Shown here: positions 8,393 through 30,907 of the stretch, one piece after another | Layout: every line of letters starts with the position of its first letter | Position numbering within the stretch: position 1 is the first letter of the stretch | Assembly: GCA_028687475.1 (NCBI GenBank) | Contig: JAQUAB010000003.1 | Span: 62,001 to 126,000 of the forward strand | Reading direction: 5' to 3' | DNA length: 64,000 nt | Source: Candidatus Gracilibacteria bacterium | GTDB taxonomy: Bacteria > Patescibacteriota > Gracilibacteria > BD1-5 > UBA2023 | The notes under the pieces: generated by a model | Told to the model about the DNA's origin: nothing | Databases searched by the model: none | What the model saw: only the letters and a program-made list of their open reading frames with translations | Translations under genes and position numbers: made by a program

Positions 8393-8728
8393 ATGCTCAT
8401 AAAACTCGTTGGTTCTGGAACAGAACTCGAAAATCTCCAAACACTTGTAAACCAAGCACTGACAGAACTCGCGCTCGCAGATGCTGTACGCGTCGAAACT
8501 ACCGATGATCCAGCCTACAAGATGGAGCTTGGAATCACAGAAAATCCTGCTCTTGCTATCGAAGAGGAATCTATCGAATTCCGCGATATGATATTTCAGG
8601 GTGAAGTACCTGCATATGATGAGATCAAGAGCATGTTCATCTCTATTCTCGGTGACGATGAGGATCATGAACACGGAGGTTCTTGTGGAACGGGAGGATG
8701 TGGAGATTGTGGTGGTGGATGTCATTAA
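8393..8728 (+). CDS. Thioredoxin-fold-like protein with Gly/Cys/His-rich tail
   Basis: A 111-aa protein. Residues 1-80 resemble the small thioredoxin-3 fold (N-terminal IKLVGSGT, a cis-Pro-like ITENPALAIE, then GEVPAYDEIKSMF), but the CXXC active site expected after residue 7 is absent. Instead the last 21 residues carry four Cys, three His and eleven Gly (for example GGSCGTGGCGDCGGGCH), a probable metal-binding tail. This suggests a redox-inactive fold reused for metal handling; that is inference. It is flanked by a terminator on each side. Confidence 0.65.
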   Translation: MLIKLVGSGTELENLQTLVNQALTELALADAVRVETTDDPAYKMELGITENPALAIEEESIEFRDMIFQGEVPAYDEIKSMFISILGDDEDHEHGGSCGTGGCGDCGGGCH

Positions 8729-8771
8729 TCTCCTGATTCGTCAACTCCAATTCCTTGCGATAAAGCGAAAT

Positions 8772-25451: not shown

Positions 25452-26621
<1,170 letters not shown>

Positions 26622-26631
26622 AGAGGAAATA

Positions 26632-27765
26632 TTATTTTTTGATTATAAGTTCTTGTGTAGGGAAAGCAATATCAATATGCGCTTTGGTGAATGATTCTTT
26701 GATACTCAGATTGATGGCAGTTTTCTGCTTCAGATAGAGACTATAGTCATCGATGAGAGAAAAGTATGTCACAGAAATACCAAGTGAAAAATCCCCAAAA
26801 TTATCAAAATTCACTCGATACGAATCCATCTCTCATTTTTCTACGAAGCCTTCGAGAATCTTCTCGATGATCGCCATCGCTTCTCTGAGCTTCACGAGAC
26901 TCGTGTCATACGTTACTCCAATAGTGAAGTCAGTTCTGCGATTGGAACGCTCAGTGAGATTTTCGATACTTGCTGAGAGGAGATTCTCATTCGGGATGAG
27001 GATCGTGTGTCATGCGAGATCAGTGAGAGACAGGTATGTGAATCCGATGTCAGAAATCGTTCCGATCATCCCATTGATACGGATCGTTTCTCCGATTTTG
27101 AATGGCTGATTGACGAGAACTGAGATAGCACCAAAGACATTCGAGAGAGACTTCTGAGCCGCAAGAGCAATAGCGATACCTCCAATTCCTGCTCCCGTCA
27201 CGAGCGCGCTGATATTGTAGCCGAGATTCCCGATGATGGTGATGCCACCGATAATCCAGAGAAATACAATAAGTATCTTTTTGATAATCGGGAACATCTG
27301 TTTCGAAAGTGCAGAAGTTCCATAACTCTTCGCCACTTTCCCGAATGTGCTATTGATCAGTGAAGTGAGGAGGATGAGTACGACTACGATGAAGACGACG
27401 TCAAAAACTATGTCGACAATGCTCTGTACGCTCGGTGGTATCGTGACCATCTGAAATCCCACATAGAGTGAAGCGAGATATTTGGAGAGGACGATGAATC
27501 GCATCAAGATACTCACCAAAATATCATCATACGTGTTTTTGGTTTTCTTTGCCCATTTTTCCAGAGACTTTCCGATTTTTTCTTCGATGATTCCGATGAC
27601 TCCATAGAGCACAAATACGAGCACAAGAGCGTTGAGATACGAGAATCACATATCGATCGTTTCGTGACTCTGCATGAATCCTGCATACATCGTCGAATAC
27701 GATGAGAGCCCGTAAATGAGAAAAAAATAGAGGATGCCTCCGACAGCAGAGAGATAATGTTTCAT
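26632..27765 (-). CDS. mscS: MscS-family mechanosensitive channel
   Basis: Small-conductance channel releasing solutes on osmotic downshock. The 377-aa product has several N-terminal membrane segments, the pore helix ALVTGAGIGGIAIALAAQKSL with the Gly/Ala packing pattern, the beta domain (PFKIGETIRINGMIGTISDIG, LIPNENLL) and a C-terminal alpha/beta domain. TGA at 27009 and 27648 are Gly. Confidence 0.92.
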
Positions 27766-27834
27766 GACAAAAAAGGAAAAGTAACAATTCGTCTTGAAGT
27801 ATCTTAAAGAAAAAGGGGGAAATGGCAAAGTAAA

Positions 27835-29643
27835 TTATTTGTAGGAAAGCATTCTCTGAAGTTCATTTTTCAATATTTCATATCCGTTTTCACTCATGAC
27901 GGACTCGGGATGGAACTGGAATCCAGAGATATTTCTTTCCTGAATCACATCCAACGGATAATGATTTGCTCAGGCATCAAAGTACCCTGATCGTTTATGA
28001 AAAATTGGAACAAATGAATTATAGAATCACACATTTTCGTAAGCCCCATTTATATAAACTTTATCTTGCTGTCATTGTTTTGATTCACTCATTGCTTGAA
28101 CGGATAATCCCATTTCCTTTGCAATCGACTGATGCCCGAGACAGATTCCGAGGAGATTCTTCTTCTGCTTCATGAGTTCTCTCGTATGTTCTGCGAGTGT
28201 TTTCATTTTCGAGTCACTCATATCGTTGATATTGCCAGGACCAGGTCAGATAACGATGATATCAGAAGCATCAGTAGTTGAGTCAAAATCAATAGTTTTC
28301 ACGATATCTACTATCATTCCCATTGTCGTCATCATACGAGCAAGCATGTTTGTGAAGTTGTCCTCATTATCGATGATGGTTACCGTCTTTCACTGGAGTT
28401 GTTCGCATGTCTTTTGCTCAGATTGTTCGAGAAAATGAAATTTGGAGAGGTATTTATTTCGTTCCTGGAGCTTGGTTATCACCTCAGGGTCATCGAGTAT
28501 TGACTGAACATCTGGGGGAGTTTGGGATTTCCCGAGAAGCGCTGCTTGCATACCACCAGTTTTCATCTTTACTTCTTGAGCTTCTCCCAGTGGCTTAGAG
28601 TTCTTGGTGATGCCAGCACCAGCCTGAATCGTCACCGTGCCATCTGCGTCAAAGTGAGCCATTCGGATGAGGATAGCGGTATCGAGATCTCCATCTGGTG
28701 TGAGAATCCCGATTTCTCCACCATAATACCTCCGAGATTGTTTCTCGTATTTTTTGATGAGTCTGGCAGCACTCTCGATCGGTCAACCAACGAGCGTCGG
28801 GGCATGGAGAGTTTCTCGCAGTGCGTCAAGAGGTTCGATACGAGGGCTTCTCTTTCCGATGAGCTTATACTCTGTATGTACAACAGCTCCATTTTGTCTC
28901 AGAAATGGTCATTCGATTTTTCCTCATTCATCACACACAATCTCCATCATCTTGAGCTCTTCATCAAGCACTTGAAAGAGCTCATTTCGCTCCTTTGTAT
29001 CTTCGAGAAATTGGAGAAGACGTTCTCTGAAAGTTTCTGGAGCTCACTTCTTGAGGGTGCCTGCAATAGGATCCATAGTAACCCTATCAGGAGTTATCAT
29101 GAGGTGTTGTTCTGGTGTGAGTGAAACAAAATATTCTCATTCCCCATCACTAAAAAAAAGAGTCATATACTGTCACTTTTGCCTCAGTGCATTCCGGAAA
29201 GCTGACTCGACATCATGTTCTGAGAAATCCTGAATCTTCCCAGTATATGGTTGTGAGAGAATCATCTGACAGATATTCCCACCTGCGATTTCTGTCTGTT
29301 GAATCTGTCTTACAATATCTGCAAATTCATCATCACTTTGGAGCGGAGTGATAGGGTGCTCGAATCGAATATCCTTACCAGAAAGAGTCTTCTCGATAGA
29401 TTCACGAGTCAGTGAAGTGATGTTGGAAACCTGAATAGCAAGGATTGGCTCATCTCCATGTGACTCGAATCCACGTTCACGAATCGTACAAAATGGAGTC
29501 AGAAAGATAATGGTCGATGTCTGTTGTTTATAGAATTCCTGAAGCCCCTGAAGCGAGGCAAACTTATAGAGAATTCCATCGTATCGAGTAATCACATCAT
29601 CTTTCTCGATGATGGCATATGGTTGGTGTGAATGAGTTTTCAT
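27835..29643 (-). CDS. trpEG: Fused anthranilate synthase, TrpE-TrpG
   Basis: A 602-aa fusion. Residues 1-415 form a chorismate-using TrpE/PhzE-type domain (MDPIAGT, LVGGPIESAARLI in place of the usual SGAPK motif, YYGGEIG, IQAGAGI, final E..K helix). From about 420 comes a class I glutamine amidotransferase: VIGPGPGN, GICLGHQS (catalytic Cys near 499), FQFHPES (His/Glu). TrpE/G, PabB/A and PhzE cannot be separated by sequence alone, but the Trp-codon leader directly upstream supports anthranilate synthase. Many TGA codons are Gly. Confidence 0.85.
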
Positions 29644-29668: not shown

Positions 29669-29734
29669 AAAAAAATCTGCCAAAAAGTTTCCTCTCTGAC
29701 AGATCGATAAAGCAGGTTCACTACAATATCCGCC
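29669..29734 (-). promoter_or_regulatory. trp attenuator before trpEG
   Basis: Minus strand. Region 3 ATCTGTCA (29704-29697) pairs with region 4 TGGCAGAT (29682-29675), followed by at least six T: a terminator. Region 2 GGCGGAT (29734-29728), lying in the leader ORF, can pair with region 3 instead (two G-U), helped by a second pairing TTCCTCT with AGAGGAA. Region 2 is a near copy of region 4, the expected competitor layout. A ribosome stalled at Trp-Trp (29759-29754) leaves GGCGGAT free. Confidence 0.8.
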
Positions 29735-29786
29735 AAAAAGGAAGAGGAATATTCCACCAAGATGTGAGAAAAGTAATTATGAACAT
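29721..29786 (-). CDS. trpL: trp leader peptide (Trp-Trp...Trp)
   Basis: A 21-aa ORF from ATG (29786) to TAG (29721), reading MFIITFLTSWWNIPLPFWRI plus Leu. It has adjacent Trp codons at 29759-29754 and a third inside the antiterminator region. It starts 8 bp after the hisIE stop and lies 77 bp before trpEG. Three Trp codons in 21 is far above background and is typical of trpL. Confidence 0.82.
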   Translation of the reverse strand: MFIITFLTSWWNIPLPFWRIL

Positions 29787-29794
29787 ATGAGTTA

Positions 29795-30592
29795 TTATTT
29801 GCGACGTTTTACAATTTCTTCTTCAACTGCTTTCCAAGGAATATCCGCTTTTACGAGAAGTATCTGGAGACGATACATAAGATCAGCTACTTCTGAAATT
29901 AAAAGTTTTTCATTGTTCATTCTTTCAAGAACTGGTCTATCAAACATTTCTAGTTTTGCCTTATCTGGAAAACTAATTCCATTTAATTGCTTGACTGTAT
30001 TTATTGTATCATCGATCTCATCCAGTGCACGATTCGATGTAGCAATGTCCATAAATGCAAGAGAGACCTCTACTCATTCTTCTGCGACCTTCTGGGCGAT
30101 ACGACTCACTTTTCACTGAAGTGCTTTTGCTGTAGATGATTTTTCAGGATCCGCATCTTTTCTGGTCATTATCATTTTTTCTTCATCTTGAAGAACTCGA
30201 GACCAATTCGGGAGATCAGTTGGCTGCTGTTCTATATCTCCCGTTATAAGATTCACTCTTCTACGGAAACAAGTTCTCCAACCATCAATGTGACAAGCAC
30301 CAGCTCCATTTACTTTCACGAGATATATGAGGGTATCATTATCGCAATCGGTGAATATATCTTGTACTTCAAGAGTATCTCATGAGGTGAGTCATTTTGT
30401 CCAGAGTTCATTGCGACTCCGTGACCAGAAAGTGGCAAGACCTGTCTTTCGGGTTTCTTCGAGAGCAAGAGGATTTACGAATCCTACCATCATAATAGAT
30501 CCTGTATCAATATCTTGGGCAATAGTAGGCATAAGATTTTCTGTGTACTTTTGGAAATCAAGCGCAAGATTTGGTGAATTAAGAGTTTTCAT
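29795..30592 (-). CDS. hisIE: HisIE: phosphoribosyl-AMP cyclohydrolase / phosphoribosyl-ATP pyrophosphatase
   Basis: Steps 2 and 3 of histidine synthesis. The 265-aa product has the HisI core (FWSRSRNELWTKGLTSGDTL, FTDCDNDTLIYLV, GACHIDGWRTCF with the metal Cys residues) and then a HisE-type helical domain (KVAEEGVEVSLAFM, EVADLMYRLQILL). Both Gly of KG..SG are TGA, strong evidence for recoding. No other his genes are in the window. A leader with Trp and His codons precedes it. Confidence 0.9.
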
Positions 30593-30616
30593 AAGTATAA
30601 AAATTATAGATAAATA

Positions 30617-30650
30617 AAATCCGCCTATTTCTGGCGGATGATTTTTTGTG
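30617..30650. terminator. Hairpin just before hisIE
   Basis: Perfect 7-bp stem atccgcc/ggcggat with T-rich sequence on both strands; it lies 27 bp before the hisIE start on the minus strand. It may be a second leader hairpin or part of the adjoining repeat. Confidence 0.55.
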
Positions 30651-30681
30651 GAGAGATTCTGAAATAAATTCAGAATGACAC
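30651..30681. repeat. Short palindromic repeat fragment in the hisIE leader
   Basis: gagattctgaaataaattcagaatgaca is a partial inverted repeat with the same atgaca end as the larger palindromic elements of this genome. Confidence 0.45.
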
Positions 30682-30773
30682 ATGAAAAAATTACCGCCGA
30701 TGCGACAAAAAATGATGCCAGATATTTTGCCAAGTTTGTTTGGATTTGAAGTAGAAATACATATGAATTTGAT

Positions 30774-30863
30774 TAAAAAAAATCCCCCGAAAGTTAGAAA
30801 ACTCACGGAGGATTTTGGAAAATATTTTTTCGAAATATCTAGGCAAAAATACCACACCGTGAG
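30774..30863 (-). promoter_or_regulatory. Attenuator before hisIE (Trp/His leader)
   Basis: Minus strand. Terminator: AATCCTCCG (30814-30806) pairs with CGGGGGATT (30789-30781), one G-U, followed by a T-run. Antiterminator: CTCACGG (30863-30857), inside the leader ORF, pairs with CCGTGAG (30808-30802), which removes the 5' arm of the terminator. A ribosome stalled on the TGG-CAT pair (30880-30875) leaves CTCACGG free; one reaching the stop codon is likely to cover or displace it. Confidence 0.7.
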
Positions 30864-30907
30864 GTGAGGGTACGATGCCAAGATGCGATAAAAATTTGTT
30901 GAGTCAT
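30839..30907 (-). CDS. Leader peptide with adjacent Trp-His codons
   Basis: A 22-aa ORF, ATG 30907 to TAG 30839, containing ...IASWHRTLTSRCG.... Trp and His codons are adjacent, matching a region that encodes one His-pathway and one Trp-pathway enzyme. The ATG lies at the predicted transcription start, so translation would be leaderless. Only one codon of each residue is present, so confidence is lower than for trpL. Confidence 0.62.
   Translation of the reverse strand: MTQQIFIASWHRTLTSRCGIFA

Follow-up and report, generated by a model that had tools for sequence, protein, structure and literature searches.

A candidate tryptophan attenuator ahead of a trpS-centred operon in Gracilibacteria

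On the minus strand of a 64,000-nucleotide stretch of a Candidatus Gracilibacteria genome (the window; genome G000), a short Trp-rich open reading frame (ORF) and a hairpin lie between hisIE (29795–30613) and trpEG (27835–29643), an arrangement that raises the question of whether a tryptophan-responsive switch sits here and, if so, which gene it serves. Judging from sequence and predicted folds, we consider it highly probable that the element acts by ribosome-mediated transcription attenuation on an operon centred on trpS, in an organism auxotrophic for tryptophan, and that it would raise tryptophanyl-tRNA synthetase (TrpRS) when charged tRNA-Trp is scarce.

The leader element and its conservation

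The leader ORF (29721–29786, minus strand) runs from an ATG at 29786 to a TAG at 29721 and specifies, in 21 codons, the peptide MFIITFLTSWWNIPLPFWRIL with Trp at codons 10, 11, and 18, in agreement with the first-pass annotation, which had described a 21-aa leader with WW and a third W. The presumed regulatory UGGUGG of codons 10 and 11 (29754–29759, minus strand) is invariant in 7/7 aligned family members. Eight long ORFs of the window have a Trp content of only 0.72%, at which a stretch of 20 codons would hold at least three Trp with a probability of roughly 4e-4. Leader-sized ORFs with WW number four in the 64 kb, both strands included, and a terminator is present at two of the four, one being the leader before trpEG; the other, a WWW ORF at 8683–8763 (plus strand), was rejected as a wrong-frame reading of the end of a Gly-rich gene. 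On inspection of the locus, neither a Shine-Dalgarno-like sequence nor a promoter was seen upstream of the leader ATG.

The same element is found in six other genomes of the family, from three further genera (four in all), located by a leader-core search and by scans of the trpEG and trpS loci. Their leaders are MSIIFRLTSWWNIPLPFWWIL in G013, MNPIVFLTSWWNLPLPHWRIF in G019, MSLLKYFTSWWNLPLPHWLRFL in G014, MFAIFILTWWILYTSLSWRLL in G015, MICTLFLTWWTAIIPLSWRLL in G005, and ...TSLTSWWNIPLSFWRVF in G004, where the start falls beyond the contig end; the peptide core TSWWNIPLP.W is retained, and in each of the six a terminator follows the leader, its 5' arm able to base-pair with the final part of the ORF. 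The loci L171, L172, L178–L180, and L188 match the leader core more weakly at the DNA level; these matches fall within other reading frames or have no leader features and were set aside. The neighboring genes vary, with hisIE upstream in G000, an unassigned 185-aa ORF in G014, and an AstE/AspA-like gene in G013 and G019, while the first gene downstream is trpEG in three genomes and a GNAT-like gene in four, with trpS thereafter in all. Because the upstream genes differ between relatives, the element is not left over from a single neighborhood, and for the same reason hisIE is not part of the switch.

A simpler reading of the locus would make the hairpin a mere hisIE terminator and the Trp-rich ORF a chance reading. 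The leader ATG does lie 8 bases past the hisIE stop, with no promoter-like site between them, but terminator-bearing WW leaders are very rare, and the element is kept behind varied upstream and before varied downstream genes together with its peptide core and alternative pairing, so conservation largely refutes this reading and leaves it extremely unlikely. The Trp codons and the alternative pairing, whose loss in close relatives had been named beforehand as evidence against an attenuator, are kept in all six relatives, and this conservation confirms, at the level of sequence, that the Trp leader/terminator element is real.

Beyond the family, Trp leaders with terminators precede trpEG in G072 (MKSIFYKIIWWTTRGWWFFI), G047 (MNGFIKNISWGLWGWCW), G160 (MFKIINNWWELQKSRYQR), G048 (MIKNYSNISWGKKGWWFI, whose reading needs UGA=Gly), and the Peribacteria-like genomes G273 and G275. 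In three other Peribacteria-like genomes, G272, G276, and G172, WW comes right at the end of the ORF, and masking folds (described below) show different behavior; these were not counted for the mechanism.

Competing arms and ribosome position

The terminator hairpin and T-run that had been called at this site are present at 29669–29705 (minus strand). Arms 2 and 3 close around a GAAA loop with 14 pairs at about -17.5 kcal/mol, the hairpin spanning 29705–29674 and a run of seven T occupying 29675–29669; the helix is longer than first drawn because the supposed loop GAGAGGAAACTTTT closes further. Arm 1 (UCCUUUUUGGCGGAU, 29728–29742, minus strand), which forms the 5' side of the antiterminator in the masking fold, lies inside the leader ORF and includes Trp codon 18. 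Arm 2 (AUCUGUCAGAGAGGA, 29690–29704, minus strand) is common to antiterminator and terminator, as seen from pairing energies and masking folds. In G000, arms 1 and 2 pair over 15 bp, so an alternative arm in the leader ORF competing for the terminator's partner does exist, again in a longer form than described. The leader region as a whole is more stably folded than its dinucleotide-shuffled versions (z -2.93).

The masking folds, which are computed only, hide the RNA up to a chosen ribosome position and compare the half with the full transcript. With the ribosome masked to the first Trp codon of WW, the antiterminator forms in the half transcript with a probability of 0.62–0.99 in 7/7 family members (0.90 in G000); with the ribosome at the stop codon, it falls to 0.00–0.25 and the terminator reaches 0.85–0.99 in the full transcript across the seven. 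With the ribosome at the third Trp, formation of the antiterminator is already mostly prevented (0.03–0.46), which points to WW as the sensing site, and the proposal that stalling at WW leaves the antiterminator arm free agrees with these predictions. The antiterminator also forms with the ribosome far upstream at codon 4 (0.62–0.99, half transcript, 7/7 members), so an untranslated leader is predicted to read through. At equilibrium, the finished G000 RNA favors the terminator whatever the ribosome position (0.95 even with the ribosome at WW), and the decision must thus fall during transcription, by co-transcriptional kinetics.

The mechanism that we infer, from translation of the leader to termination in vivo and the response to tryptophan, would have a ribosome trailing RNA polymerase along the leader ORF. 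When charged tRNA-Trp is ample, the ribosome would reach the stop codon and cover arm 1, allowing arm 2 to pair with arm 3 as the terminator, and transcription would end near 29669. When charged tRNA-Trp is scarce, the ribosome would stall at codons 10 and 11, leaving arm 1 free to capture arm 2 ahead of the synthesis of arm 3; past the resulting antiterminator, the polymerase would continue into trpEG, the mscS-like gene, and trpS.

Covariation of the arms across relatives, a check put forward in the first-pass annotation, was run as an arm swap, because the inner stem came out misplaced when the seven elements, with their differing loop lengths, were aligned with MAFFT, and column-wise pair counts from that alignment were dropped. 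The swap compares native arm 1:arm 2 duplex energies with those of arms exchanged between loci, by permutation and ignoring shared ancestry. With kinship thus ignored, native arms pair better than swapped ones both within the family (-13.6 versus -10.7 kcal/mol, p=0.005) and over 17 loci (-11.3 versus -7.0 kcal/mol, p<5e-5). A synonymous test, in which the peptide is kept and the codons are redrawn, gives the fraction of recodings that pair as well as the native sequence; this is 0.024 in G000, where the native pairing beats 97.6% of recodings, 0.006 in G014, 0.021 in G019, 0.006 in G160, 0.048 in G015, and 0.049 in G005. In the same test, the pairing of G004 is weakly better than its recodings (0.12) and that of G013 no better (0.49).

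A real switch could also dispense with ribosome stalling, the RNA being acted on by the leader peptide itself or by a TRAP- or repressor-like protein factor. Trans-acting trp leader peptides are known from Sinorhizobium (PMC7298713), and the leader peptide core is conserved here at the amino-acid level. However, the peptides of other families (MNGFIKNISWGLWGWCW, MKSIFYKIIWWTTRGWWFFI) differ save for their Trp codons, the arms co-vary, and the predicted fold depends on ribosome position, so that we regard such action on the RNA as very unlikely and keep to ribosome stalling as the preferred reading.

The controlled unit and tryptophan auxotrophy

The unit under control is trpEG–mscS-like–trpS. 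Its first gene after the attenuator, trpEG (minus strand), encodes a fused chorismate-binding enzyme and glutamine amidotransferase (Pfam PF00425, PF00117); the second (26632–27828, minus strand) encodes an MscS-like mechanosensitive channel (PF00924, PF21082, PF21088) and lies 6 and 10 bases from its neighbors; and trpS (25452–26621, minus strand; PF00579) is the single tryptophanyl-tRNA synthetase match in G000. Nine of the 11 in-frame TGA codons of trpEG correspond to Gly in the non-recoded G160 homologue, so the genome reads UGA as glycine, bearing out the earlier view that it is UGA-recoded. The leader itself is free of UGA. The attenuator heads trpEG–trpS in G014 and G004, and a GNAT-like gene plus trpS, without trpEG, in G013, G019, G015, and G005. 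Since these four relatives keep the attenuator before trpS, trpS is its constant target.

Profile searches of G000, G014, and G004 returned nothing for TrpD, TrpC, TrpB, TrpA, or chorismate synthase, each search being positive in 14/14 control genomes, and G072 (98% complete, with a Trp leader before trpEG) was likewise without them. G000 is thus very probably a tryptophan auxotroph, and the trp biosynthesis operon initially assumed as the target is not borne out, with these genes undetected and trpS constant across relatives. That the element is instead a conventional biosynthesis attenuator in a prototroph whose remaining trp genes were missed could be argued from a genome that is 96.4% and not 100% complete, and from the trpEG clade, which includes TrpEG-TrpD-TrpC fusions near trpB and trpA (G160, G121), also behind Trp leaders. 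Against it stand the empty profiles with their positive controls and the same gene set absent from the nearly complete G072, and we hold it to be highly improbable. For the preferred trpS-centred operon, the physiological role would be to raise TrpRS when Trp-tRNA is scarce, because the organism very probably cannot make tryptophan itself.

This leaves the place of trpEG in the unit to be considered. The best solved relative of TrpEG is 3r74 (263 bits), which we take to be PhzE; TrpE 1i1q scores only 79 bits. Its homologues in G160 and G121 (46–47% identity) form part of fusions with TrpD and TrpC, and trpB and trpA lie near them, so the clade can serve tryptophan synthesis; in a wider contig scan, matches were mostly to actinobacterial and proteobacterial fused synthases. 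We tentatively favor one of two roles for trpEG: it may be what is left of an operon that was formerly complete, or it may provide a separate or accessory anthranilate-type activity on imported chorismate.

In a similar way, hisIE (minus strand) looks orphaned, no HisA/HisF-family gene having been found over the cut-off in G000 or in eight same-family relatives. It is conceivable, though unlikely, that Trp/His-auxotrophic CPR bacteria retain lone enzymes (PhzE-like TrpEG, HisIE) under amino-acid-sensing leader switches, with starvation inducing a tRNA synthetase together with an enzyme working on the host's chorismate or histidine-precursor pool. If so, induced TrpEG might, for example, supply anthranilate and bypass host feedback control.

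Neighboring regulators and known systems

Other leader-like features occur around hisIE. A second leader ORF, MYFYFKSKQTWQNIWHHFLSHRR (30691–30762, minus strand), has tandem His codons and a terminator at 30612–30639, lies directly before hisIE, and behaves in masking folds as a predicted His attenuator would. A similar leader in G002 (L192), MKRSQLWINIWHHYLAHWR, has a terminator of like kind and precedes an unassigned gene and trpS. A third leader-like ORF, MTQQIFIASWHRTLTSRCGIFA (30839–30907, minus strand), lies upstream of the His leader and has a strong terminator at 30775–30816 (-19.5 kcal/mol); a ribosome placed at Trp10/His11 changes its predicted fold as well, and hisIE may thus be preceded by attenuators in tandem. 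Within the same leader region, the palindrome TGTCATTCTGAATTTATTTCAGAATC (30651–30680, minus strand) resembles the dispersed TGTCATTCCGGA...TCCGGAATC repeats of relatives (L015, L008).

TrpR was found in none of the attenuator genomes (0/7, G000 included) and is present in 51 of 118 relatives. Several trpEG loci have no Trp leader, e.g., in G028 and G030, and there a TrpR-family gene lies upstream instead. In G121 (L005, 3324–3635, minus strand), a TrpR-family repressor (Pfam, 47.5 bits) ends in the C-terminal tail SSWWQKLIWRA*, and this tail itself holds the position of Trp leader peptide for the attenuator that follows, ahead of the TrpEG-D-C fusion. Operator-like inverted repeats occur near leader starts in L155, L150, L012, and L005, for example, TGTACCGTTGTAACGGTACA in Peribacteria-like loci and TGTACTAGTGTACTAGTACAC in G121, which suggests that TrpR repression may be combined with attenuation at such loci. 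The order-level relatives G040, G051, G056, G059, G062, and G073 have trpS and a TrpR-family gene a few hundred bases apart, and it may thus be common within this order for another regulator to make trpS responsive to tryptophan.

The enteric trp attenuator consists of four segments, and its RNA terminates when untranslated. The G000 device differs in having three arms, with arm 1 inside the ORF and without a protector (1:2) hairpin, and its untranslated RNA is predicted to antiterminate; its targets are trpS and an orphan trpEG, not trpEDCBA. Shared with trpL of Escherichia coli (PMC7755916) are the short leader with tandem Trp codons, the intrinsic terminator, and an antiterminator selected by ribosome position. 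The match to enteric attenuation drawn in the first-pass annotation thus stands for the Trp-Trp leader, the terminator, the competing antiterminator, and the stalling logic but not for the layout, given three arms, no protector hairpin, and default read-through.

Candidate classical attenuators have been described in Actinobacteria before trp operons and trpS2 (PMC1262725), and these resemble the present element in their leaders with double or triple UGG, in complementary triples common to antiterminator and terminator, and in a tryptophanyl-tRNA synthetase target. In contrast, the standard code applies there, and trpS2 stands alone as a candidate in S. avermitilis; the G000 target belongs to a multi-gene unit and is the sole trpS match in the genome of an auxotroph. 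Chlamydia trachomatis trpRBA (PMC7755916) offers another likeness, in that the bacterium depends on its host and has an incomplete set of trp genes under Trp-codon-dependent control; there, the WWW motif works through YtgR in trans and a cis trpL is doubtful, whereas G000 has a cis leader, a clear terminator, and conserved arms. A T-box would give the same output, more aminoacyl-tRNA synthetase when the tRNA is uncharged, but G000 has a leader ORF, predicted to be translated, instead, and Rfam at gathering and permissive thresholds returned no T-box or other RNA family at the site and no Trp leader model at E<=5. A literature search, covering few subscription papers, found no report of such an attenuator in CPR bacteria. 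What is new is the phylum and the context, that is, a candidate Trp attenuator with an unusual target (trpS) and a predicted default-on layout; the kind of attenuator is already known.

If this reading is right, minimal host-dependent CPR bacteria retain a translation-coupled transcription switch for amino-acid shortage, and such a switch would require tight coupling of ribosome and polymerase in CPR cells. It would also provide a natural default-on, three-arm attenuator for comparison with the default-off enteric one, and it flags orphan TrpEG and HisIE as enzymes with an unexplained role. Above all, in an auxotroph it would be trpS, and not tryptophan synthesis, that is worth regulating, the switch being kept while the neighbors of trpS change.
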